Origin: Reinekea marinisedimentorum
GTDB taxonomy: Bacteria > Pseudomonadota > Gammaproteobacteria > Pseudomonadales > Natronospirillaceae
Reading direction: 5' to 3'
DNA: 55,179 nt
Assembly (NCBI RefSeq): GCF_004341165.1
Contig: NZ_SLZR01000021.1
Span: 1-55,179 of the forward strand
A program made the translations under genes and the position numbers. Shown here in pieces: positions 16,742-28,912 of the stretch (position 1 is its first letter; every line of letters begins with the position of its first letter). Below the pieces are notes generated by a model. The model was not told the DNA's origin. It was given only the letters and a program-made list of their open reading frames with translations, and did no database searches.

Positions 16742-17929
16742 ATGTTTTCACATCTACAGCCTCGCCCTGCAGACCCGATTCTGGGGCTTTCCGTTAAGTT
16801 CGCCGCCGACACTAACCCGAACAAGATTGACTTAGGTGCCGGTATCTACAAAGACGCAGCCGGTAATACCCCGGTTCTGGCCTGCGTTAAAGCCGCTGAA
16901 CAATTCCGTGTAGATAATGAAAACACCAAGGCTTATATCAACTCAATGGGTTCAGCCCTGTTTAACGAAAAGTTCACCGAACTGATGCTGGGTGAGCACC
17001 GTGTGATTGCTGAAAAACGTATTCGCACGCTGTCTACTCCGGGCGGTACCGGCGCACTGCGTATTGCCGGTGAATTCATCAACAGCTGCAAGCCGGGCGC
17101 CACCATTTGGGTGAGCAACCCAACCTGGGCGAACCACCAGGGCGTATTCACGGCCGCTGGCTTAACGGTGAAAACCTACCCGTACTACGATTACGAAAAC
17201 AACTGCCTGGATTTCAACGGCATGCTGGAAGCGCTGAAAGATGTGCCGGCCGAAGATGCCGTGCTGATTCACGCCTGCTGCCACAACCCTAGCGGTATGG
17301 ATTTAAACAACGAGCAATGGCAACAGGTAGCCGAGCTGGTGAAAGAAGTGGGCTTCACGCCGGTGGTTGATATGGCCTATCAGGGCTTTGGTGATGGCCT
17401 GGAAGCCGATGCCTACGGCCTGCGTTTAATGGCAGATATCGTCGACCGCATGGTTATCTGTGGTTCCTGCTCGAAAAACTTCGGCCTGTACCGCGAGCGC
17501 ATCGGTGCTTGTTCAGTCATCAGTGCCTCTGCTGCAGAAAGCGATACCGTGGGGACTATTCTGCCGGCGATTGTGCGCGTGAATTATTCCATGCCGCCAG
17601 CGCACGGTGCTGCGATTGTAGAAACCATTCTGAACTCGGCTGAACTGACACAGCAATGGTATGGCGAACTGGCCGAAATGCGCGACCGCATCAACGGCAT
17701 GCGTCAGTTGCTGGTCGATAAACTGATTGAAAATGGCGTACAGCAAGACTTCAGCTTCATTACCCGCCAAAAGGGCATGTTCTCATTCCTGGGTATCAGC
17801 AAAGAGCAGGTGCAGCGCATTCAGGATGAATCGAGCATCTACATTGTTGGTTCCAGCCGAATTTCGATTGCCGGTATTTCACCGAGCAATGTCGATTACC
17901 TGGCGCAATCGATTGCGAAAGTGCTGTAA
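16742..17929 (+). CDS. aspC: Aspartate/aromatic aminotransferase, class I
   Basis: This 395-residue PLP enzyme interconverts aspartate or aromatic amino acids with their keto acids using 2-oxoglutarate/glutamate. The PLP lysine lies in SCSKNFGLYRERIG, the Asn of the cofactor site in HACCHNPSGMD, and the carboxylate-binding Arg near the C-terminus in SSRISIAGI. The start MFSHLQPRPADPILGL and the length are typical of the AspC/TyrB subgroup; which substrate dominates cannot be told. A strong terminator follows. The last codons and the terminator recur in degenerate form at 19.03-19.12 kb. Confidence 0.9.
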   Translation: MFSHLQPRPADPILGLSVKFAADTNPNKIDLGAGIYKDAAGNTPVLACVKAAEQFRVDNENTKAYINSMGSALFNEKFTELMLGEHRVIAEKRIRTLSTPGGTGALRIAGEFINSCKPGATIWVSNPTWANHQGVFTAAGLTVKTYPYYDYENNCLDFNGMLEALKDVPAEDAVLIHACCHNPSGMDLNNEQWQQVAELVKEVGFTPVVDMAYQGFGDGLEADAYGLRLMADIVDRMVICGSCSKNFGLYRERIGACSVISASAAESDTVGTILPAIVRVNYSMPPAHGAAIVETILNSAELTQQWYGELAEMRDRINGMRQLLVDKLIENGVQQDFSFITRQKGMFSFLGISKEQVQRIQDESSIYIVGSSRISIAGISPSNVDYLAQSIAKVL

Positions 17930-20740: not shown

Positions 20741-22573
20741 GTGAATAATTCACTATTCAATTTAACAGCAAGCTCATTACTGCTTGTGTTTTTAGCGGGT
20801 TGTTCCGTGGAGTCTGATGTAGTTGATGATATTTTATCTGATACAGAGGATACGTCTGAGCAGACGACCGATGATACAACGACCGATGATTCAACTGATG
20901 ACTCTGAAGATTCAACCGATGACTCTGATGATTCAACTGATGACTCTGATGATTCAACTGACGACTCTGATGATTCAACTGATGACTCTGATGATTCAAC
21001 TGACGACTCTGATGATTCAACTGACGACTCTGATGATTCAACCGATGACTCTGACGATTCAACCGATGACTCTGACGATTCAACCGACGACTCTGACGAT
21101 TCAACCGATGACACGGCTTCCTCTGTCACGGGTATTTACCGTATTGACGAAAACGGCTATATCACTGAGAACGGCTCCCCCTTTGAACCTAACTGTGTAA
21201 GCTGGTTTGGTCTGGAAGGCCAGCATGAACCTAGCGATGCTGAATACAATGCCGGTGGCGCACCAATGGAGCTTTATGTAGGAAACATGTGGTGGGTCCA
21301 GGACGGCAGTGAATGGCCAGCCAACGGTACTGGTCGTACTATTGAACAGACTATCGAAGAAGCGATGGCTGAAGGTGTCAATCTGATTCGTCTGCCGATT
21401 GCACCGCAAACATTGGATGCTACCGACCCTCAAGGTGTTGGTTCTATTGGTGAGTATGCATTCAGTACTGTTTCAAGTGATTACTCATCAGACTACAGCG
21501 CTGATGAAGTTGTACTGAAAAACCACCCAGATGTAGTGCAGGAAAACTCTCGTCAGGCACTGGAAGATTTCATTACTACAGCAGATGCTTATGGCCTGAA
21601 AGTTATCATCGATATCCACTCATGCTCGAACTACATTGGCTGGCGCGCTGGTGACCTGGAAGCAACACCTCCATATGTAGATGCTGATCGTGTTGACTAC
21701 GATTACACCCGTGAAGACTATGCCTGTGGTGTAGATGCTGGTGATGGTGTAACCGTACACGAGTATAACGAAGAGTTGTGGCTGGAAACATTGGCTGAAG
21801 TTGCTGGCCTGTCTGAAGAGTTAGGCGTAGACAACATCTTGGGTGTTGATATCTTCAACGAACCTTGGAACTACACTTGGTCTGAATGGAAAGATCTGGC
21901 AGAGAAAGCTTACGATACTATCAGTGCTGTAAACGACGATATGCTGATTATTGTTGAAGGTGTTGGTTCTGCACTGAAAGATGACACAGCTGTTGAACAT
22001 GGTGATGAAAGCTCAGCGCCAAACTGGGGTGAAAACCTGTATGGCTTCGCAAGCGATCCATTGGATATTCCACAAGATCGTTTGATTCTGTCTCCACATA
22101 CTTACGGTCCTTCTGTGTTTGTGAAAAATATATTCCTTGAACAGACTGAAGCATGTGAAGGTCTTGAAGGTGATGACGCAGGTGAAGCCGGTTGTGATAT
22201 CGTGATTGATTCTGAAGCCTTGGAAGCCGCTTGGGAAGAACACTTCGGCTACCTGCGTGATGAAGGTTATGCGGTACTGGTTGGTGAATTCGGCGGAATG
22301 ATTGATTGGCCAGCAGGTGCTGATGATTACTATCAAGATCTGTGGGATCACCTGAGTGACGATAATGTTGACGAGCAATGGCAGAATGCCTTGGTTGACT
22401 ACATGGTTGATCAGGATATTGAAGGTTGTTACTGGTCTCTGAATCCAGAATCAGCAGATACTGGCGGTTTATATAATCATGCTTGGGAAGCTGACACCAA
22501 CGAAGGTGGTTGGGGAACCTGGGAAGACTTCAACGATACTAAATTAGACATTGTGAAAAAGCTTTGGAACTAA
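20741..22573 (+). CDS. Glycoside hydrolase family 5 lipoprotein with repetitive acidic linker
   Basis: This 610-residue lipoprotein, probably an endo-beta-glucanase or related glycanase, starts with GTG after AAGGAG and has a lipobox LVFLAGC. Residues about 25-124 form an acidic linker dominated by a seven-residue repeat STDDSDD. The GH5 barrel follows: GVNLIRLPIAP, IIDIHS, the acid/base Glu374 in DIFNEPWN, HTYGPSVF, and the nucleophile Glu516 in LVGEFGG. Further features are WSLNPESADTGGLY and several Cys that may form disulfides (ACEGL, GCDI, DYACG, HSC). No separate carbohydrate-binding module is seen. The exact GH5 subfamily and substrate cannot be assigned by eye. An intrinsic terminator follows. 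Confidence 0.92.
   Translation: MNNSLFNLTASSLLLVFLAGCSVESDVVDDILSDTEDTSEQTTDDTTTDDSTDDSEDSTDDSDDSTDDSDDSTDDSDDSTDDSDDSTDDSDDSTDDSDDSTDDSDDSTDDSDDSTDDSDDSTDDTASSVTGIYRIDENGYITENGSPFEPNCVSWFGLEGQHEPSDAEYNAGGAPMELYVGNMWWVQDGSEWPANGTGRTIEQTIEEAMAEGVNLIRLPIAPQTLDATDPQGVGSIGEYAFSTVSSDYSSDYSADEVVLKNHPDVVQENSRQALEDFITTADAYGLKVIIDIHSCSNYIGWRAGDLEATPPYVDADRVDYDYTREDYACGVDAGDGVTVHEYNEELWLETLAEVAGLSEELGVDNILGVDIFNEPWNYTWSEWKDLAEKAYDTISAVNDDMLIIVEGVGSALKDDTAVEHGDESSAPNWGENLYGFASDPLDIPQDRLILSPHTYGPSVFVKNIFLEQTEACEGLEGDDAGEAGCDIVIDSEALEAAWEEHFGYLRDEGYAVLVGEFGGMIDWPAGADDYYQDLWDHLSDDNVDEQWQNALVDYMVDQDIEGCYWSLNPESADTGGLYNHAWEADTNEGGWGTWEDFNDTKLDIVKKLWN
20888..21112 (+). repeat. 21-nt tandem repeat inside the GH5 linker
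   Basis: Eleven in-register starts of GATTCAA occur every 21 nt, giving ten full units plus a partial. Each encodes (D)STDDSD. Copies differ only at third codon positions (ACT/ACC, GAT/GAC), and neighbouring units share variants, as expected from recent unit duplication. Length changes by multiples of 21 nt would preserve the frame. Confidence 0.95.
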
Positions 22574-23098: not shown

Positions 23099-23578
23099 CT
23101 AAACGATTTTTGCTGGCGTCACAATTACGCCATCGGTATCGGCATACAGGTACTGGCCTTGTTTAAATTCCACACCACCGAATGAGAGATCATTACCGCG
23201 TTCACAACTGGTAACCGGTATCGATTTACGCGGGCAGGTGCCAATGGCATACAGTGCCACGGGAATGTCTTTAATCTGGAAGGTATCGCGAATATAGCCG
23301 TTGACGATTATGCCGGCGTAGTTGTTCTGGTGGGCGAATTTCATCAGGTTTTCTCCGACGACAGCGAAGTATTCGCGGCTCACATCCACCACCACCACCT
23401 TACCGGTGCCGTCTTCATCGCGCAGCAGCGAGATCAGCCCTGCATTGTTCTTATCCAGCTTAATGGTAACGATTTCGCCTTCGCATTTTTCGGCGCCGCC
23501 GTAGTTGTGGTAGCCCGCTTCCAGTACGTGGGTGATTTCGCTGTGTTCGTCACAAATATCGGCGGTAAAGAATGTCAT
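23099..23578 (-). CDS. RraA-family protein (aldolase/RNase E regulator fold)
   Basis: This 159-residue protein has the RraA signatures TADICDEHS at the start, GTGKVVVVDVSREYFAVVGENL and AGIIVNGYIRDT, with the Arg-Asp pair that is catalytic in 4-hydroxy-4-methyl-2-oxoglutarate aldolases. E. coli RraA instead inhibits RNase E; the family contains both activities and sequence alone does not separate them. The start at 23578 follows AGGAAG; nine more codons upstream are unlikely. It is divergent from the glutamate mutase operon, 152 bp away. If functionally linked, an aldolase acting on a branched C5/C6 keto acid would fit better than RNA decay, but this is only a contextual guess. Confidence 0.85.
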   Translation of the reverse strand: MTFFTADICDEHSEITHVLEAGYHNYGGAEKCEGEIVTIKLDKNNAGLISLLRDEDGTGKVVVVDVSREYFAVVGENLMKFAHQNNYAGIIVNGYIRDTFQIKDIPVALYAIGTCPRKSIPVTSCERGNDLSFGGVEFKQGQYLYADTDGVIVTPAKIV

Positions 23579-23730
23579 GGTTGCTTCCTGTGTTGATGGG
23601 TTCAATTGGGGTTAATCGTGCGGCCAATAGCAGACTGTATGCCGCCATCAGCAATGCCGCACAGCCTTGATTGTTGGTAATATTAACGCACATAACCACA
23701 TCTACATACAGGCATAGGGTAGTGAAGCCA

Positions 23731-24144
23731 ATGAAGGTAGTCACCGGCGTTGTGGGTAACGACATTCACGTTGTCGCCAACCGCTTAATAGATTTGTCGT
23801 TACGGGCGCGAGGCTTTGATGTCTTTAACCTGGGCGTAAACACGTATTTGGAAGAGTTCTTTGATGCAGCCGTTGAAACGGGGGCTGATGTAATTCTTAT
23901 CTCCTCGCTTAATGGTGAGGCAGAAGGCTGGGGCCGCGAGGTTCGGGCCATTAAATCGCGCTATAAAACACTGGACGACATCATCATGATGATTGGCGGC
24001 AACCTGGTGGTGGGCAGCGGTAATGCTGAAGATATTGAGCCGCGCTACAAGAACTATGGTTTCGATATCGTCTGTCATCAGATCGACCTGAACACCGGCC
24101 TGGATATGCTGGAAGAATTCATTAAAGAGAGAAATAACCCATGA
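23731..24144 (+). CDS. glmS: Glutamate mutase (methylaspartate mutase) cobalamin-binding S subunit
   Basis: This 137-residue subunit carries adenosylcobalamin for the rearrangement of L-glutamate to (2S,3S)-3-methylaspartate. The B12-binding loop is NDIHVVANRL with His13 as the cobalt ligand; the family's DxHxxG motif has Ala16 in place of Gly. LISSLNGE and MMIGGNLVVGSGN are the usual following loops that contact the corrinoid tail. The start at 23731 gives the standard N-terminus; the open frame reaches back to 23671. Not to be confused with glucosamine-6-phosphate synthase, which shares the name GlmS. It is the first gene of a four-gene, overlapping operon. Confidence 0.93.
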   Translation: MKVVTGVVGNDIHVVANRLIDLSLRARGFDVFNLGVNTYLEEFFDAAVETGADVILISSLNGEAEGWGREVRAIKSRYKTLDDIIMMIGGNLVVGSGNAEDIEPRYKNYGFDIVCHQIDLNTGLDMLEEFIKERNNP

Positions 24145-25511
24145 GCCTGTTACAGGAAGAACGAGAAATCATCCTCAGTAACGAGTTTGTCGAATCCTTC
24201 GATTTCGCTGAGGTGACAGAATTCGTTAAGAACGCCAGTAAAGACCTGTTTATTTCTCACCATTTCAAGAATAAGCCCAAGGGTAAAATGCTGGTGCAGC
24301 CGCGTGGTGGATTCCCGACCTATAAGAAACAGTTTGAACTGAGCGAATTCTTCGTGAAGTCGAATGTGGATGTACTGCCACTGACCATCGATTCCAACAC
24401 CCGCCTCAACGACTACGCCACAGCGCAAAAGATGCTGCGCCTGAGTGAAGAAAACGATGTCGATATGCTTAACGGCTACCCGCTGATTAACCACGGCTAC
24501 CGCACCACGCGCAAAATGTTCACACACTTTAATAAGCCGGTGAGCCTGCGCCACGGTACGCCGGATGCGCGCCTTTTGATCGAAACCGCCATTGCCTCGG
24601 GCATTTTTGAGATTGAAGGCGGGCCTATTACCTACCTGTTGCCCTATTCCAAAAACTTCCCGCTCGATAAAGCCTTTTTGTACTGGAAGTATGTAGAGCG
24701 TGTGTGCGCCAACTACTCTGGCCTGAACGAGCCCATTAACCGCGAATCGTTCGGCCCGCTCACGGCGACGCTGGTACCGCCAGCCATTACTATTGTGGTT
24801 CAACTGCTGGAAATGCTGCTGTCGCTGGAAGAGGGCGTGAAGTCGTTCTCGGTATCGTTCGCGCAGCAGGGTTCCATGATGCAGGATGCCGTCACCAGTG
24901 AAGTTCTGATGAAGATGGCCCGGCACTATGCGGAAGAAATCGACTGTGGCGATGCCGCCATTAACCTGGTTTACCACCAGTGGATGGGCGCCTTCCCAAC
25001 CAATAAAGACTACGCCGAGCAGCTGATTAACATGTCTACGGTGATCGCCAAGCTGGTGGGTGCCGATAAGATCATCACCAAAACCCGTGAAGAAGCTGCG
25101 GGCATCCCAACCAAGGAAGCCAACGCCAAAACCGTGGCCAACACTCAGTACACTCTGGGCATTTTGAATGGACTGCCGAAGATTGTGGACGCCGAAGAAG
25201 AAGAGATTCTGACTCTGGAAGTTCAGGCCATTATGGAAGCGGTATTCAACGACCCGGCCGATACCCTGTGGCGTAAGGTGTTCAACTGCATTAAGAACGG
25301 CATTATCGATGTGCCATTCTCGCCGCACATCATCAACCACAACAACATGATCACCATTCGCGATGCGCAGAAGAACATCCGTATCATCGATCGTGGCAAT
25401 GTGCCCATTCCCGACCGTTGTTTTAAATACGAGCGCGCACAGTGCGATTTAACCAAAGATACCACCAGTATCGTTAATGACATCGTTCACGATATAGGAA
25501 TTATGCAATGA
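24141..25511 (+). CDS. glmE: Glutamate mutase (methylaspartate mutase) catalytic E subunit
   Basis: This 456-residue TIM-barrel subunit binds glutamate and positions the coenzyme. Compared with the clostridial enzyme as I recall it, the substrate 'arginine claw' is complete: Arg55 (VQPRGG), Arg88 (SNTRLN) and Arg137 (LRHGTPDAR). Glu159 (EIEGGP), Tyr165 and Tyr169 (ITYLLPYSKN), and the KTREEAAGIPTKEAN segment are also kept. Glutamate is therefore the likely substrate. The start overlaps the glmS stop as ATGA and the stop overlaps glmL likewise. No methylaspartate ammonia-lyase gene, the usual partner in glutamate fermentation or the methylaspartate cycle, is in the window. Confidence 0.95.
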   Translation: MSLLQEEREIILSNEFVESFDFAEVTEFVKNASKDLFISHHFKNKPKGKMLVQPRGGFPTYKKQFELSEFFVKSNVDVLPLTIDSNTRLNDYATAQKMLRLSEENDVDMLNGYPLINHGYRTTRKMFTHFNKPVSLRHGTPDARLLIETAIASGIFEIEGGPITYLLPYSKNFPLDKAFLYWKYVERVCANYSGLNEPINRESFGPLTATLVPPAITIVVQLLEMLLSLEEGVKSFSVSFAQQGSMMQDAVTSEVLMKMARHYAEEIDCGDAAINLVYHQWMGAFPTNKDYAEQLINMSTVIAKLVGADKIITKTREEAAGIPTKEANAKTVANTQYTLGILNGLPKIVDAEEEEILTLEVQAIMEAVFNDPADTLWRKVFNCIKNGIIDVPFSPHIINHNNMITIRDAQKNIRIIDRGNVPIPDRCFKYERAQCDLTKDTTSIVNDIVHDIGIMQ

Positions 25512-26734
25512 GCCAGAACGTTGACAAGCAGCCCGAGCAGGCTGGCAACAAGCTGTTTATCGATGTCGGCAGTACCTACTTTAAGGTCAGCACGCCGACC
25601 AGTATTGAGCAGCACTTTCGCGATTTTAATAAGACCATTCTCGATGACCTGATGCATAAGTGCGGCAGCACGGTCGATCAGTTTGCGAAAGAAGATATCT
25701 ACATCTGTTCCTCGGCGAACGGTGGTTTAAGCACGCTGTTGATCGGCATTACCAACTCGTTTTCGATCAAGTACGCCACCAACATTGCGTTTAACTCCGG
25801 CATTAACATTATCGATACCGTGCTGCTGCAGAACATTGAAGAGTACTCTATCCCCAGCGATTTGATCGATGTGGTGATCATTGTGGGTGGTACCGATTCG
25901 CACGGCAATATCTTTAACGACAGCCTGTACAACTATGTGCAGCAGCTGAATTACTCCAACATTGTCTATGTGGGTACCCAGCAGGATGCCGCCCGCGTGC
26001 AGGAGAATATTCCCGGCCTGGTGGTGCTGCCGAACATCATTGACGACCGCCTGCACATTGTGGAAGAGCACCTGAAAGAGTACCTGACCAACCTGTACCA
26101 GCAGGATATTGAAGGCAAGGAAGATATTAAGCACCTGTACGAGAAAACGGCGAATCAGATCTTCTCTACGCCTTACATCGTCAACAAGGCGCTGCCGCTG
26201 ATCGATGCCTCCTTCACGGTGGCGAACCCCTTTATTCTGCTGGATATCGGCGGTGCCACCACCGACGTGCACTATTCCAAAGACCTGGTCGATGAAAACA
26301 TCGTGACCGAAAACGAATACGACCGCTTAGTCTTTAAAAAGCTCGGGGTTTACAAATCGCGCCAGTCGCTGATTTTTGCCGCCAAGAATAACGAATTCGT
26401 TTACGAGCTGCTGATGCACCTGAAGGTGACGGAAAACATCTTCAACGAGCACGATGAAAAAGCGACTAAAATTTTAATGCAGCTGGCGATTTTCCTGGTG
26501 CTTTGCAAAATGTCGCATTACCGCAAGGCCTACATTACTCTGAAGTTGCTTTCGATTAACTCGATTGTGTTCACCGGTGGTATAACCAAGGTATTGTCGG
26601 TCGCCGAGGTGGAAGACATCATCGCTTTCTTCTATAAAAAGATATTGACGTCCGATCACAAGCCAACGGCCATCCTTGATACGAATTACGACATTTGGAC
26701 TCTGGGTGCGAAGGAGAAAAATCTATGTCGATAA
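25508..26734 (+). CDS. glmL: Glutamate mutase reactivase/activator MutL-like protein
   Basis: This 408-residue protein has the actin-like ATPase (ASKHA) fold of MutL/GlmL proteins, which restore mutase activity by exchanging damaged cobalamin. The phosphate-binding loops are LFIDVGSTYFKVS near residue 16 and FILLDIGGATTDVHYS in the second half, with SIVFTGGITKVLS near the C-terminus. It starts inside the glmE stop (ATGA). Its retention right after the two mutase genes indicates a B12 enzyme that works under conditions, probably aerobic, where inactivation is frequent. Confidence 0.9.
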   Translation: MSQNVDKQPEQAGNKLFIDVGSTYFKVSTPTSIEQHFRDFNKTILDDLMHKCGSTVDQFAKEDIYICSSANGGLSTLLIGITNSFSIKYATNIAFNSGINIIDTVLLQNIEEYSIPSDLIDVVIIVGGTDSHGNIFNDSLYNYVQQLNYSNIVYVGTQQDAARVQENIPGLVVLPNIIDDRLHIVEEHLKEYLTNLYQQDIEGKEDIKHLYEKTANQIFSTPYIVNKALPLIDASFTVANPFILLDIGGATTDVHYSKDLVDENIVTENEYDRLVFKKLGVYKSRQSLIFAAKNNEFVYELLMHLKVTENIFNEHDEKATKILMQLAIFLVLCKMSHYRKAYITLKLLSINSIVFTGGITKVLSVAEVEDIIAFFYKKILTSDHKPTAILDTNYDIWTLGAKEKNLCR

Positions 26735-28296
26735 ACACGGTAAGAGCTTTATTGGAAGACGCCGCGGCAACACATGGCGATAAAGTTGCGGTGAAACTGA
26801 ACGAAAAGAGCATCAGCTACAGCGAGCTGCTCACCCGGGTCAATCAGGTGGCGTTCTACTTAACCGAGCTGAACCTGCCCAGCGGTGCCCGCGTGGGTAT
26901 CTATTCCGATAAATGCATCGAGCAGGTGGTGGCCATTCTGGCGGTGCTTTCGACCGATACCATCTTAGTACCGCTCACCAAAATGCTGGTGGCCGAGCAG
27001 GTGGAGTACATCATCAACGATTGCGATATTCAGTGCGTGATCACCGATAAGCTGAAGCTGGAGAACATCGAAGATGTAAATTTCAAAGGCCATGTCATCA
27101 GCTATGAAAAAACCGAGCAGAACATCCCGTGCTTTGAAGAGATTTATAAGTACTACAACAAGCCGTTCCAGTGCGAAGTGAACAGCCACGATAACGCGGT
27201 GATCACCTATTCGTTTGGCTTAACCGGCACGCCCAAGGGCATTGTGATTTCGCACCGCAATCTCACTGATTCCGCCGCGGTCGTCTGCCGTTACTTAGGG
27301 TTACAGGAAGATGACGTTATTTCCGGCCTGCTGATTTTTAACCTCGATTACGGCCTGAACCAGATTTTCTGCTCGCTGTTTAAAAAGGCGACACTGGCAC
27401 TGCACCGCTTTATTTTGCCGACCGATTTCTTCAATCATTTAATCGACGATAACGTCACGGTACTGGCACTGATGCCGGTGCACATTTCGCAGATATTCGA
27501 TGAAGACTTAAGCCCAATTCCTAACGCCGAGCTGTTTGATAAACTGCGCATCATTACCTCATCGGGCGGTAACCTTTCGGCCAAGATGATCAAGTACAGC
27601 AAGCGCACCTTCCCCCAAGCCAACTTCTACTCGATGCATGGTTTAACTGAAGCGTTCCGCTCTACCTACCTCGACCCGGCGCAAATTCAGATTCGCCCGG
27701 ATTCGATCGGTAAAGCCATTCCGGATGTTGAGCTGTATGTGGTCAATGAGCAGGGCAAAGAGTGCGCGCCGCGTGAAGTGGGCGAACTGATCCACCGCGG
27801 CGGTTACATCTATCGCGGTTACTGGAACGCGCCGGAAGAAAGCAAAGAGCGCTTTAAGTCGGTTCAAATTCTGAAAGACGTGATCAATCTGGAAGGCCAG
27901 CTGAACGATGAAATCGTGGTGGCTACCGGTGATTATGTTTATAAAGACGAGGAAGGCTACCTGTACTTTGTTTCCCGTCACGATGACATGATCAAGACCC
28001 GTGGCTTCCGTGTTTCGCCGTTCGAGATTGAATCCGTTGTTGAAAAGAACTTGCCGCAGATTAGCCAGTGCGCGGTGTTTGGTATCGATAACGAGCAGAT
28101 TGAAGAAGAGATTGTGCTGGTTTATTCGGCACCGGGTGAACTCAGTGAAAAAGAAATTGAGTTTGAACTGAAGAAGCACCTGGCTTCTTACATGATTCCT
28201 TCACGCATTGTTTATAAGCGTTCTTTGCCGCTGATGCAGAGCGATAAGCACAGTGTTAATAAAGAAGCGCTGAAGCGGGAGCTGACGGCGGATTAA
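26725..28296 (+). CDS. Adenylate-forming ligase (ANL superfamily) of the glutamate mutase operon
   Basis: This 523-residue enzyme would activate a carboxylate as an acyl-adenylate and pass it to CoA, a carrier protein or an amine. ANL core motifs are present but partly unusual: A3 is YSFGLTGTPKG instead of YTSGSTGxPKG; A5 is SMHGLTEAFR; A7/A8 are TGDYVYKDEEGYLYFVSRHDDMIKTRGFRVSPFEIE; the A10 lysine lies in SDKHSVNKEALK. The start at 26725 has AAGGAG upstream and overlaps glmL by 10 bp, so it is coupled to the mutase. The operon logic suggests 3-methylaspartate or glutamate as substrate, which is an inference. No carrier domain, condensation domain or stand-alone PCP is in the window. An intrinsic terminator follows. 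Confidence 0.88.
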   Translation: MSINTVRALLEDAAATHGDKVAVKLNEKSISYSELLTRVNQVAFYLTELNLPSGARVGIYSDKCIEQVVAILAVLSTDTILVPLTKMLVAEQVEYIINDCDIQCVITDKLKLENIEDVNFKGHVISYEKTEQNIPCFEEIYKYYNKPFQCEVNSHDNAVITYSFGLTGTPKGIVISHRNLTDSAAVVCRYLGLQEDDVISGLLIFNLDYGLNQIFCSLFKKATLALHRFILPTDFFNHLIDDNVTVLALMPVHISQIFDEDLSPIPNAELFDKLRIITSSGGNLSAKMIKYSKRTFPQANFYSMHGLTEAFRSTYLDPAQIQIRPDSIGKAIPDVELYVVNEQGKECAPREVGELIHRGGYIYRGYWNAPEESKERFKSVQILKDVINLEGQLNDEIVVATGDYVYKDEEGYLYFVSRHDDMIKTRGFRVSPFEIESVVEKNLPQISQCAVFGIDNEQIEEEIVLVYSAPGELSEKEIEFELKKHLASYMIPSRIVYKRSLPLMQSDKHSVNKEALKRELTAD

Positions 28297-28325
28297 CGAC
28301 TGTTTAGTTAAACTGCTAGTGAAAG

Positions 28326-28354
28326 GGCTGCGCTGAAAGGTGCAGCCTTTTTTT
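28326..28354 (+). terminator. Intrinsic terminator of the glutamate mutase operon
   Basis: GGCTGC (28326-28331) pairs with GCAGCC (28342-28347), followed by seven Ts. It lies 30 bp after the ligase stop. Confidence 0.9.
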
Positions 28355-28667: not shown

Positions 28668-28706
28668 TACAGTATCGTGGCGAGGTTTGATTCAGAGCTT
28701 TTGAGT

Positions 28707-28798
28707 CATGCTCCTGACCAATAAGGGCATCTGAGGCATGGATGCCGAAGCTGAGCTCCATGGATGGATTTATGCGTCCCTTATTGGTCAGGAGCATG
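28707..28798. repeat. Folded inverted-repeat element 4
   Basis: Perfect 21-bp arms (28707-28727 and 28778-28798) surround a core with two hairpins: GGCAT/ATGCC around GG (28735-28746) and TCCAT/ATGGA around GG (28757-28768). Outside the arms, CAGAGCTT and AAGCTCTG (about 28693 and 28815) extend the palindrome with an interruption. Confidence 0.8.
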
Positions 28799-28912
28799 GC
28801 TTAAAAGCGGTGTAAAGCTCTGATGATCCAAGCATCCTTTTCGACGCCACAAAAAAGGCCACACCCATCGGTGCAGCCCTGCTCATTGAAGTAGGCTGAG
28901 TTGATCTAACCC

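Follow-up and report, generated by a model that had tools for sequence, protein, structure and literature searches.

A glutamate mutase operon with a VinN-like ligase and an RraA-like partner in marine bacteria: a candidate module for 3-methylaspartate activation

The pairing of a glutamate mutase with a VinN-type ligase is already known from macrolactam antibiotics. In the vicenistatin/sceliphrolactam starter pathway, the glutamate mutase VinH/VinI is combined with VinN, an ANL enzyme that activates 3-methylaspartate, while in classical operons (glmS-glmL-glmE-methylaspartase) the genes for the mutase subunits and their reactivator stand together with methylaspartase. Here, we analyzed a stretch of 55,179 nucleotides from the gammaproteobacterium Reinekea marinisedimentorum (contig NZ_SLZR01000021.1; hereafter the window), in which genes for GlmS, GlmE, a GlmL-like protein, and an ANL ligase form one operon. 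This four-gene unit, together with a divergent gene for an RraA-like protein (RraA2), constitutes a widespread set in many marine bacteria rather than a local oddity, and RraA2 is a near-strict partner of the unit. Our favored explanation, to which we give an even chance, is that the four operon genes and RraA2 form a module producing 3-methylaspartate activated at a carboxyl group, with something other than a dedicated carrier protein as the acceptor. Three findings go beyond the original prediction: the RraA-like partner, the breadth of conservation, and a VinN-like ligase pocket. That prediction was made from the sequence alone and had placed the ligase in the position of the missing methylaspartase; this substitution is unproven.

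A conserved four-gene unit and its RraA-like partner

The following features of the window are discussed:

23731..24144, plus strand: GlmS, B12-binding subunit of glutamate mutase (NF002612, 154 bits, cut-off 110; TIGR01501, 101.9 bits, below its cut-off of 135.8)
24141..25511, plus strand: GlmE, catalytic subunit of glutamate mutase (PF06368, 382.7 bits; TIGR01503, 367.9 bits, below its cut-off of 390.1; pocket mapped against 6h9e/1cb7)
25508..26734, plus strand: GlmL-like (MutL) accessory ATPase, short and diverged (PF13941, 88.4 bits; NF040745, 71.5 bits, far below its cut-off of 475)
26725..28296, plus strand: ANL ligase, probable 3-methylaspartate-activating enzyme (PF00501, 212.5 bits; best NCBIfam model TIGR03098, 442.6 bits, below its cut-off of 592)
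23099..23605, minus strand: RraA-like partner (RraA2), divergent from glmS (PF03737, 109.3 bits; likely ATG at 23578)
~28321..28352, plus strand: intrinsic (rho-independent) terminator of the operon (hairpin of -23 kcal/mol, z -4.5)
16742..17929, plus strand: aspartate-type aminotransferase, an optional neighbor (NF006719, 564 bits)

Several of these family scores fall below curated cut-offs, and we therefore regard GlmS, GlmE, the GlmL-like protein, and the ligase all as diverged members. As originally predicted, the four genes, all on the plus strand, overlap by 4 bp (glmS/glmE), 4 bp (glmE/glmL), and 10 bp (glmL/ligase), and a single terminator hairpin closes the operon; a simple terminator scan did not list this hairpin. 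No B12 riboswitch was detected upstream of the operon at the Rfam gathering score. The sole Rfam match in the window was a TwoAYGGAY RNA at 28690-28815 (45.2 bits, cut-off 43), in the gap that separates the operon from the gene after it.

A scan of named genomes yielded 220 relatives, the best 80 of which were retained for locus analysis. These 80 comprised 53 gammaproteobacteria, 22 Campylobacterota, 3 betaproteobacteria (Burkholderiales), 1 member of the Rhodothermales, and 1 unassigned genome, and their GlmE proteins were 79 to 90% identical to that of the window. With L007 and L009 added, 82 loci were available (L055 lies within L007). Copies covering at least 85% of the query length were present for GlmS in 81, for GlmE in 81, for GlmL in 78, for the ligase in 76, and for RraA2 in 67 of them. 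The survey across genomes envisaged in the original prediction thus found the unit mostly intact among the best 80 of the 220 relatives. The six ligase shortfalls consisted of four contig ends (L013, L047, L068, and L078), one copy in which a contig end comes after an in-frame stop (L069), and one copy truncated inside its contig (L012). The two damaged copies, namely, L012 (3424-4509, from a Colwellia metagenome-assembled genome [MAG]) and L069 (in-frame stop, from 10558), may reflect either assembly error or decay. In the Aliarcobacter MAG STC_124, the unit was found on two contigs (L072 and L074), owing to duplication or mixed strains. The R. marinisedimentorum genome encodes one GlmE, and PF06368 was detected in five of 369 sampled genomes of the same class, four of this type and one (G014) divergent.

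The unit predicted as a set of four genes is thus real, and it was incomplete in that the RraA-like fifth gene accompanies it almost strictly. RraA2 is 29% identical to the other RraA-family protein of its own genome and is distinct from two copies presumed to be canonical RraA. In the RraA fold, the motif for metal binding and catalysis consists of an R-D pair and a third acidic residue. The pair R97-D98 (numbered from the ATG at 23578) was retained in 66 of 66 linked copies, and position 101 was Gln in 65 of them. The 15 loci short of RraA2 comprised five that end at a contig border (L007 and L055, which share one contig, L009, L012, and L035) and ten in which RraA2 does not adjoin the unit (L018, L020, L045, L069-L074, and L076). 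Six of the latter, all from the Arcobacter group (L070-L074 and L076), have an unlinked RraA2 copy that clusters with the operon-linked Malaciobacter copy. The contig of L045 belongs to G516, which carries RraA2 (74%) on a different contig, and for L018 and L020 a search at the family level placed PF03737 matches in other parts of their genomes (the genome of L069 was outside this search). In five loci of the Aliarcobacter group (L092, L094, L097, L099, and L101), the unlinked RraA2 adjoins a gene that we take to be gamma-glutamylcyclotransferase-like; two genes further, L097, L099, and L101 have a presumably OvoA-like gene (ovothiol synthesis).

A PF03737 protein was found in 50 of 50 searched genomes that carry the unit; many of these have two or more such proteins, some presumably canonical RraA, so that this count is weak alone. 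In the class sample of 369 genomes, RraA2 copies of at least 60% identity occurred only in G000 and G265, and the other 45 matches did not exceed 43%; among the other two genomes of that sample with the unit, G190 showed a partial RraA2 at a contig end, and no copy was seen in G051, whose contig breaks off within glmE. Within the genus Sulfurimonas (that of G395, the genome of L031), 22 of 135 genomes had GlmE, 23 had PF03737, and 21 had both; RraA2 was thus present in 21/22 genomes with GlmE versus 2/113 others (Fisher p 2.6e-21). Among the exceptions, G465 has GlmE without RraA2, its contig ending inside glmS on the rraA2 side, and G490 has a weak PF03737 relative (76 bits); the third, G474, is taken up below. 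Since other genes lie between rraA2 and glmS in G428 and G538 and the two are on different contigs in G516, the link is not one of mere adjacency.

Substrate pockets of the mutase and the ligase

GlmE scored 275 and 279 bits against two solved glutamate mutase sequences (6h9e/1cb7). Its residues Arg55, Arg88, and Arg137, described in the original prediction as a complete arginine claw, do correspond to Arg66, Arg100, and Arg149 in the solved enzyme, and E159, Y165, Y169, K314, and E318 align with E171, Y177, Y181, K326, and E330. In glutamate mutase, Arg66, Arg100, Arg149, E171, Y177, and Y181 are the substrate residues with catalytic roles. All eight mapped positions were invariant in 82/82 aligned sequences (window included). 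The B12-binding motif of GlmS is D-x-H-x-x-G; at this site the GlmS of the window has DIHVVA, in which D11 and H13 are retained and A16 replaces the glycine (74/74 aligned sequences). From family membership and pocket, we infer that GlmS/GlmE rearrange L-glutamate to (2S,3S)-3-methylaspartate, with the GlmL-like protein as reactivator.

When ligase residues 194-422 were searched against solved structures, VinN (3wvn) ranked first with an E value of 4.6e-18, the next other protein being at 7.4e-11; a shorter pocket query gave no match at E 0.001. According to section 2.3 of PMC11253843, the substrate site of VinN includes D230, F231, S299, K330, and R331. These residues correspond to D208, Y209, S280, F311, and R312 of the ligase, with a constant offset and without a gap in the loop before R331, and the exchange of F231 for Y209 is conservative. 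All five ligase residues were invariant in 77/77 ligases. Four TIGR03098-like ligases (L125, L111, L112, and L113) also have D208, R312, and the sequence TEAFRST, with Thr or Ser at position 280. The pocket thus fits an amino dicarboxylate, as judged by alignment, and the nucleotide-side motifs are the peculiarity of this operon.

Proposed function and alternatives

In the favored explanation, B12-dependent GlmS/GlmE would convert L-glutamate to (2S,3S)-3-methylaspartate, and the GlmL-like reactivator would sustain this step. The ligase would then activate 3-methylaspartate with ATP, probably, as for VinN, at the carboxylate beta to the amino group; D208 would bind the amino group, R312 and S280 would face the other carboxylate, and Y209 would pack against the substrate. 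Finally, the acyl group could pass to coenzyme A (CoA), to general AcpP, or directly to an amine, with no dedicated carrier, as the counts of carrier domains suggest. RraA2 is most likely a decarboxylase or aldolase that depends on Mg and has a 2-oxo acid of this pathway as its substrate; it might, for example, remove 3-methyloxaloacetate arising from transamination of 3-methylaspartate.

The original prediction had found no methylaspartase beside the unit, and the genome-wide search agreed with it: the best match in the own genome reached 16.6 bits (cut-off 27), and no coregulated methylaspartase was found there. A clear methylaspartase was present in 1 of the 50 searched genomes with the unit (G383, Pseudomaricurvus alkylphenolicus, the genome of L044; 364 bits, contig C70), and eight further matches above the cut-off were partial and did not exceed 48.8 bits, as for cross-hits of the enolase superfamily. 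Together with the VinN-like pocket, these data fit activation of 3-methylaspartate better than fermentation. Carrier domains (PF00550; E 0.001 or better), a search target named in the original prediction, were searched for in 22 genomes, 16 of which have the unit. Five of these 16 (G395, G397, G538, G391, and G386) showed a single match each, in frames of 80 to 100 amino acids, presumably AcpP, while others showed more, up to 11 in G370; some, such as G370 with several matches in long frames, seem to have multidomain synthases. The own genome has two; the second, which shows no link to the unit, lies amid what by eye appear to be genes for glycans and sulfotransferases. The exosortase-type decarboxylase TIGR03099 exceeded its cut-off in 3/50 genomes, the own genome not among them. 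The carrier, TIGR03099, and methylaspartase counts indicate that neither a continuation as in vicenistatin synthesis nor fermentation is general. The originally suggested biosynthetic activation, as opposed to fermentation, fits the complete mutase pocket, the missing methylaspartase, and the VinN-like ligase pocket; peptide or polyketide synthesis as its general use is not supported, given the carrier and TIGR03099 counts. With these counts, and with no conserved carrier open reading frame (ORF) recognized by eye at the loci, use by nonribosomal peptide or polyketide synthases, or of the exosortase type, was downgraded as a general rule.

The neighborhoods, up to 2.5 kb downstream of the ligase and 1.8 kb upstream of glmE, were surveyed for small ORFs (clusters of at least 35 amino acids in at least 8 loci). 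By eye, the survey gave the known genes, frames overlapping them, and two ORFs downstream, one cytochrome c-like (9 loci) and one on the minus strand (10 loci). Among neighbor clusters common to at least 4 of 83 loci, the largest beyond the unit, RraA2, and the aminotransferase spans 15 loci. In the window, a putative lipoprotein glycoside hydrolase (20741-22573; label given by eye) carries an extended repeat built of Asp/Ser/Thr units close to its N terminus.

Several observations weigh against the favored explanation. In a whole-length search of solved structures, VinN ranked 20th, with gramicidin synthase subunits first; K330 of VinN is replaced by F311; and TIGR03098 ligases of unknown substrate also carry D208 and R312, so that the pocket is no proof of 3-methylaspartate. 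The A3 P-loop and the A10 lysine are canonical ANL motifs. The A3 of the ligase (YSFGLTGTPKG), noted as atypical in the original prediction, was altered in 77/77 ligases (YSFG invariant, followed by L/M/V/I, T/S, and G), and A10 has a two-residue insertion, the usual lysine being K508 in 56/77 and K508 or K510 in 58/77; adenylation may thus be changed or lost. The AlphaFold2 model of the ligase was poor (mean predicted local distance difference test score, 52.7; 18 close relatives as input). With respect to RraA2, the Fisher test of the association within Sulfurimonas ignores shared ancestry, and G474 has RraA2 and no GlmE, with ~5 kb on the glmS side free of glm genes; its contig ends ~250 bases beyond rraA2, on the side away from the expected glmS. 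The activity of RraA2 is argued from its family and from R97-D98 only, and no enzyme using activated 3-methylaspartate was found.

Among the alternatives, the neighboring aminotransferase suggests a route from glutamate to 2-oxobutyrate, in which the aminotransferase would form 3-methyloxaloacetate and RraA2 would decarboxylate it, for isoleucine or propionyl units, with the ligase in a side role. An isoleucine route through methylaspartate was reportedly described in 1972. The aminotransferase lies ~5 kb from RraA2 in the window and adjoins it in many relatives; it occurs at 33/53 gammaproteobacterial loci, and the solved structures most similar to it are aspartate aminotransferases (its NCBIfam name is aromatic amino acid transaminase). 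Moreover, PMC5065237 describes an HMG/CHA aldolase of the RraA fold that decarboxylates oxaloacetate as well. However, the aminotransferase was found at none of 27 other loci in the fetched DNA (22 Campylobacterota and 5 nongammaproteobacterial or unassigned), two sampled genomes that lack the unit have relatives at 70% and 57% identity, and the conserved, overlapping ligase would be left without need. Because the IlvA regulatory domain exceeded its cut-off in 31/50 genomes with the unit, including the own genome, and the aminotransferase does not accompany the unit strictly, the isoleucine route was downgraded as the main reading, and we consider it unlikely.

Slightly less probable still is a ligase that has lost adenylation and instead partners the mutase in binding or regulation. 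The altered P-loop and A10 would agree with such a role, as would the position of the ligase gene, which overlaps glmL or starts within ~106 bp of it (tblastn ends). The pocket, however, is invariant, and the A7/A8 core is retained (G402, D403, G427, and R429 in 77/77 and K424 in 76), which together argue for retained catalysis.

We regard as improbable a CoA-first breakdown of glutamate replacing methylaspartase, in which 3-methylaspartyl-CoA would be converted by an unlinked ammonia-lyase to mesaconyl-C4-CoA, followed by hydration and cleavage to C2 and C3 units. The rarity of methylaspartase would suit this route, and three alphaproteobacterial mutase operons, which continue with methylaspartase, CoA-transferase, and CoA ester lyase, make it chemically reasonable. 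Nevertheless, no such lyase or hydratase was recognized by eye in the clusters of at least 4/83 loci (unlinked enzymes were not searched for), and RraA2 would have no place. Finally, a vicenistatin-like starter, in which carrier-loaded 3-methylaspartate would be decarboxylated to a 3-amino-2-methylpropionyl unit for incorporation into a natural product or glycan, has its first two steps in common with VinH/VinI and VinN, agrees with the similar ligase pocket, and has parallels in two TIGR03098 ligases with a decarboxylase and an acyl carrier protein (ACP) among glycan genes and in apparent multidomain synthases of G370 and others, but is very improbable given the rarity of TIGR03099, the five genomes with one carrier domain, and the unlinked second carrier of the own genome.

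A bolder form of our favored explanation, which we put forward tentatively and hold to be doubtful, is a widespread, unrecognized branch of glutamate metabolism in marine bacteria that depends on B12 and operates without machinery for peptides, polyketides, or fermentation, and in which the RraA-like protein would be an essential metabolic enzyme. If true, this branch would yield a new small metabolite, conjugate, or cofactor. If the favored explanation is right, 3-methylaspartate would serve free-living marine bacteria in a conserved way that is neither fermentation nor antibiotic synthesis. A metabolic role would also fall to one group within the RraA family, whose models name RNase E regulators, and a B12 requirement would be predicted, possibly relevant in B12-limited seawater.

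Comparison with known systems

No account of a carrier-free, RraA-linked, and widely conserved version of the mutase-ligase pairing was found among the open-access literature matches listed, and the same literature gave no paper pairing "methylaspartate mutase" with RraA or methylaspartate with Sulfurimonas. The vicenistatin pathway is among the closest known systems: the aspartate, aromatic, serine, and arginine residues of the ligase pocket align with those of VinN. That pathway, however, has the carrier VinL, the decarboxylase VinO, VinM/VinK, and a polyketide synthase, none of which was recognized at the present locus, where GlmL and RraA2 occur instead, along with mostly marine Gram-negative hosts and altered A3/A10 motifs. 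A different kind of locus is L122 (a Roseibium aggregatum plasmid), where a 664-amino-acid annotated glutamate mutase subunit E lies beside an adenylation protein, an aromatic amino acid lyase, and an amino acid racemase.

With the classical operons, the unit has the mutase subunits, the reactivator, and the mapped pocket in common. It differs in that its GlmE is at most 39.5% identical to plasmid-borne relatives among the matches listed and in the absence of adjoining methylaspartase, CoA-transferase, and CoA ester lyase, all of which the three alphaproteobacterial operons possess. The exosortase A-associated acyl-CoA ligases of TIGR03098 are the closest named family of the ligase and share TEAFRST, D208, and R312 with it. 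In contrast to the present ligase, they have canonical A3 (YTSGSTGKPKG) and A10 (NGK(I/L/F)DR) motifs, as seen in the same four TIGR03098-like ligases, and at two annotated loci among glycan genes they have a decarboxylase and an ACP nearby. Lastly, according to PMC5065237, RraA family members exist in organisms without RNase E, and most homologues have one of two catalytic motifs. RraA2 resembles the RraA/HMG-CHA aldolase family as a PF03737 member with the R-D pair and differs from it by its near-strict partnership with the glm unit.

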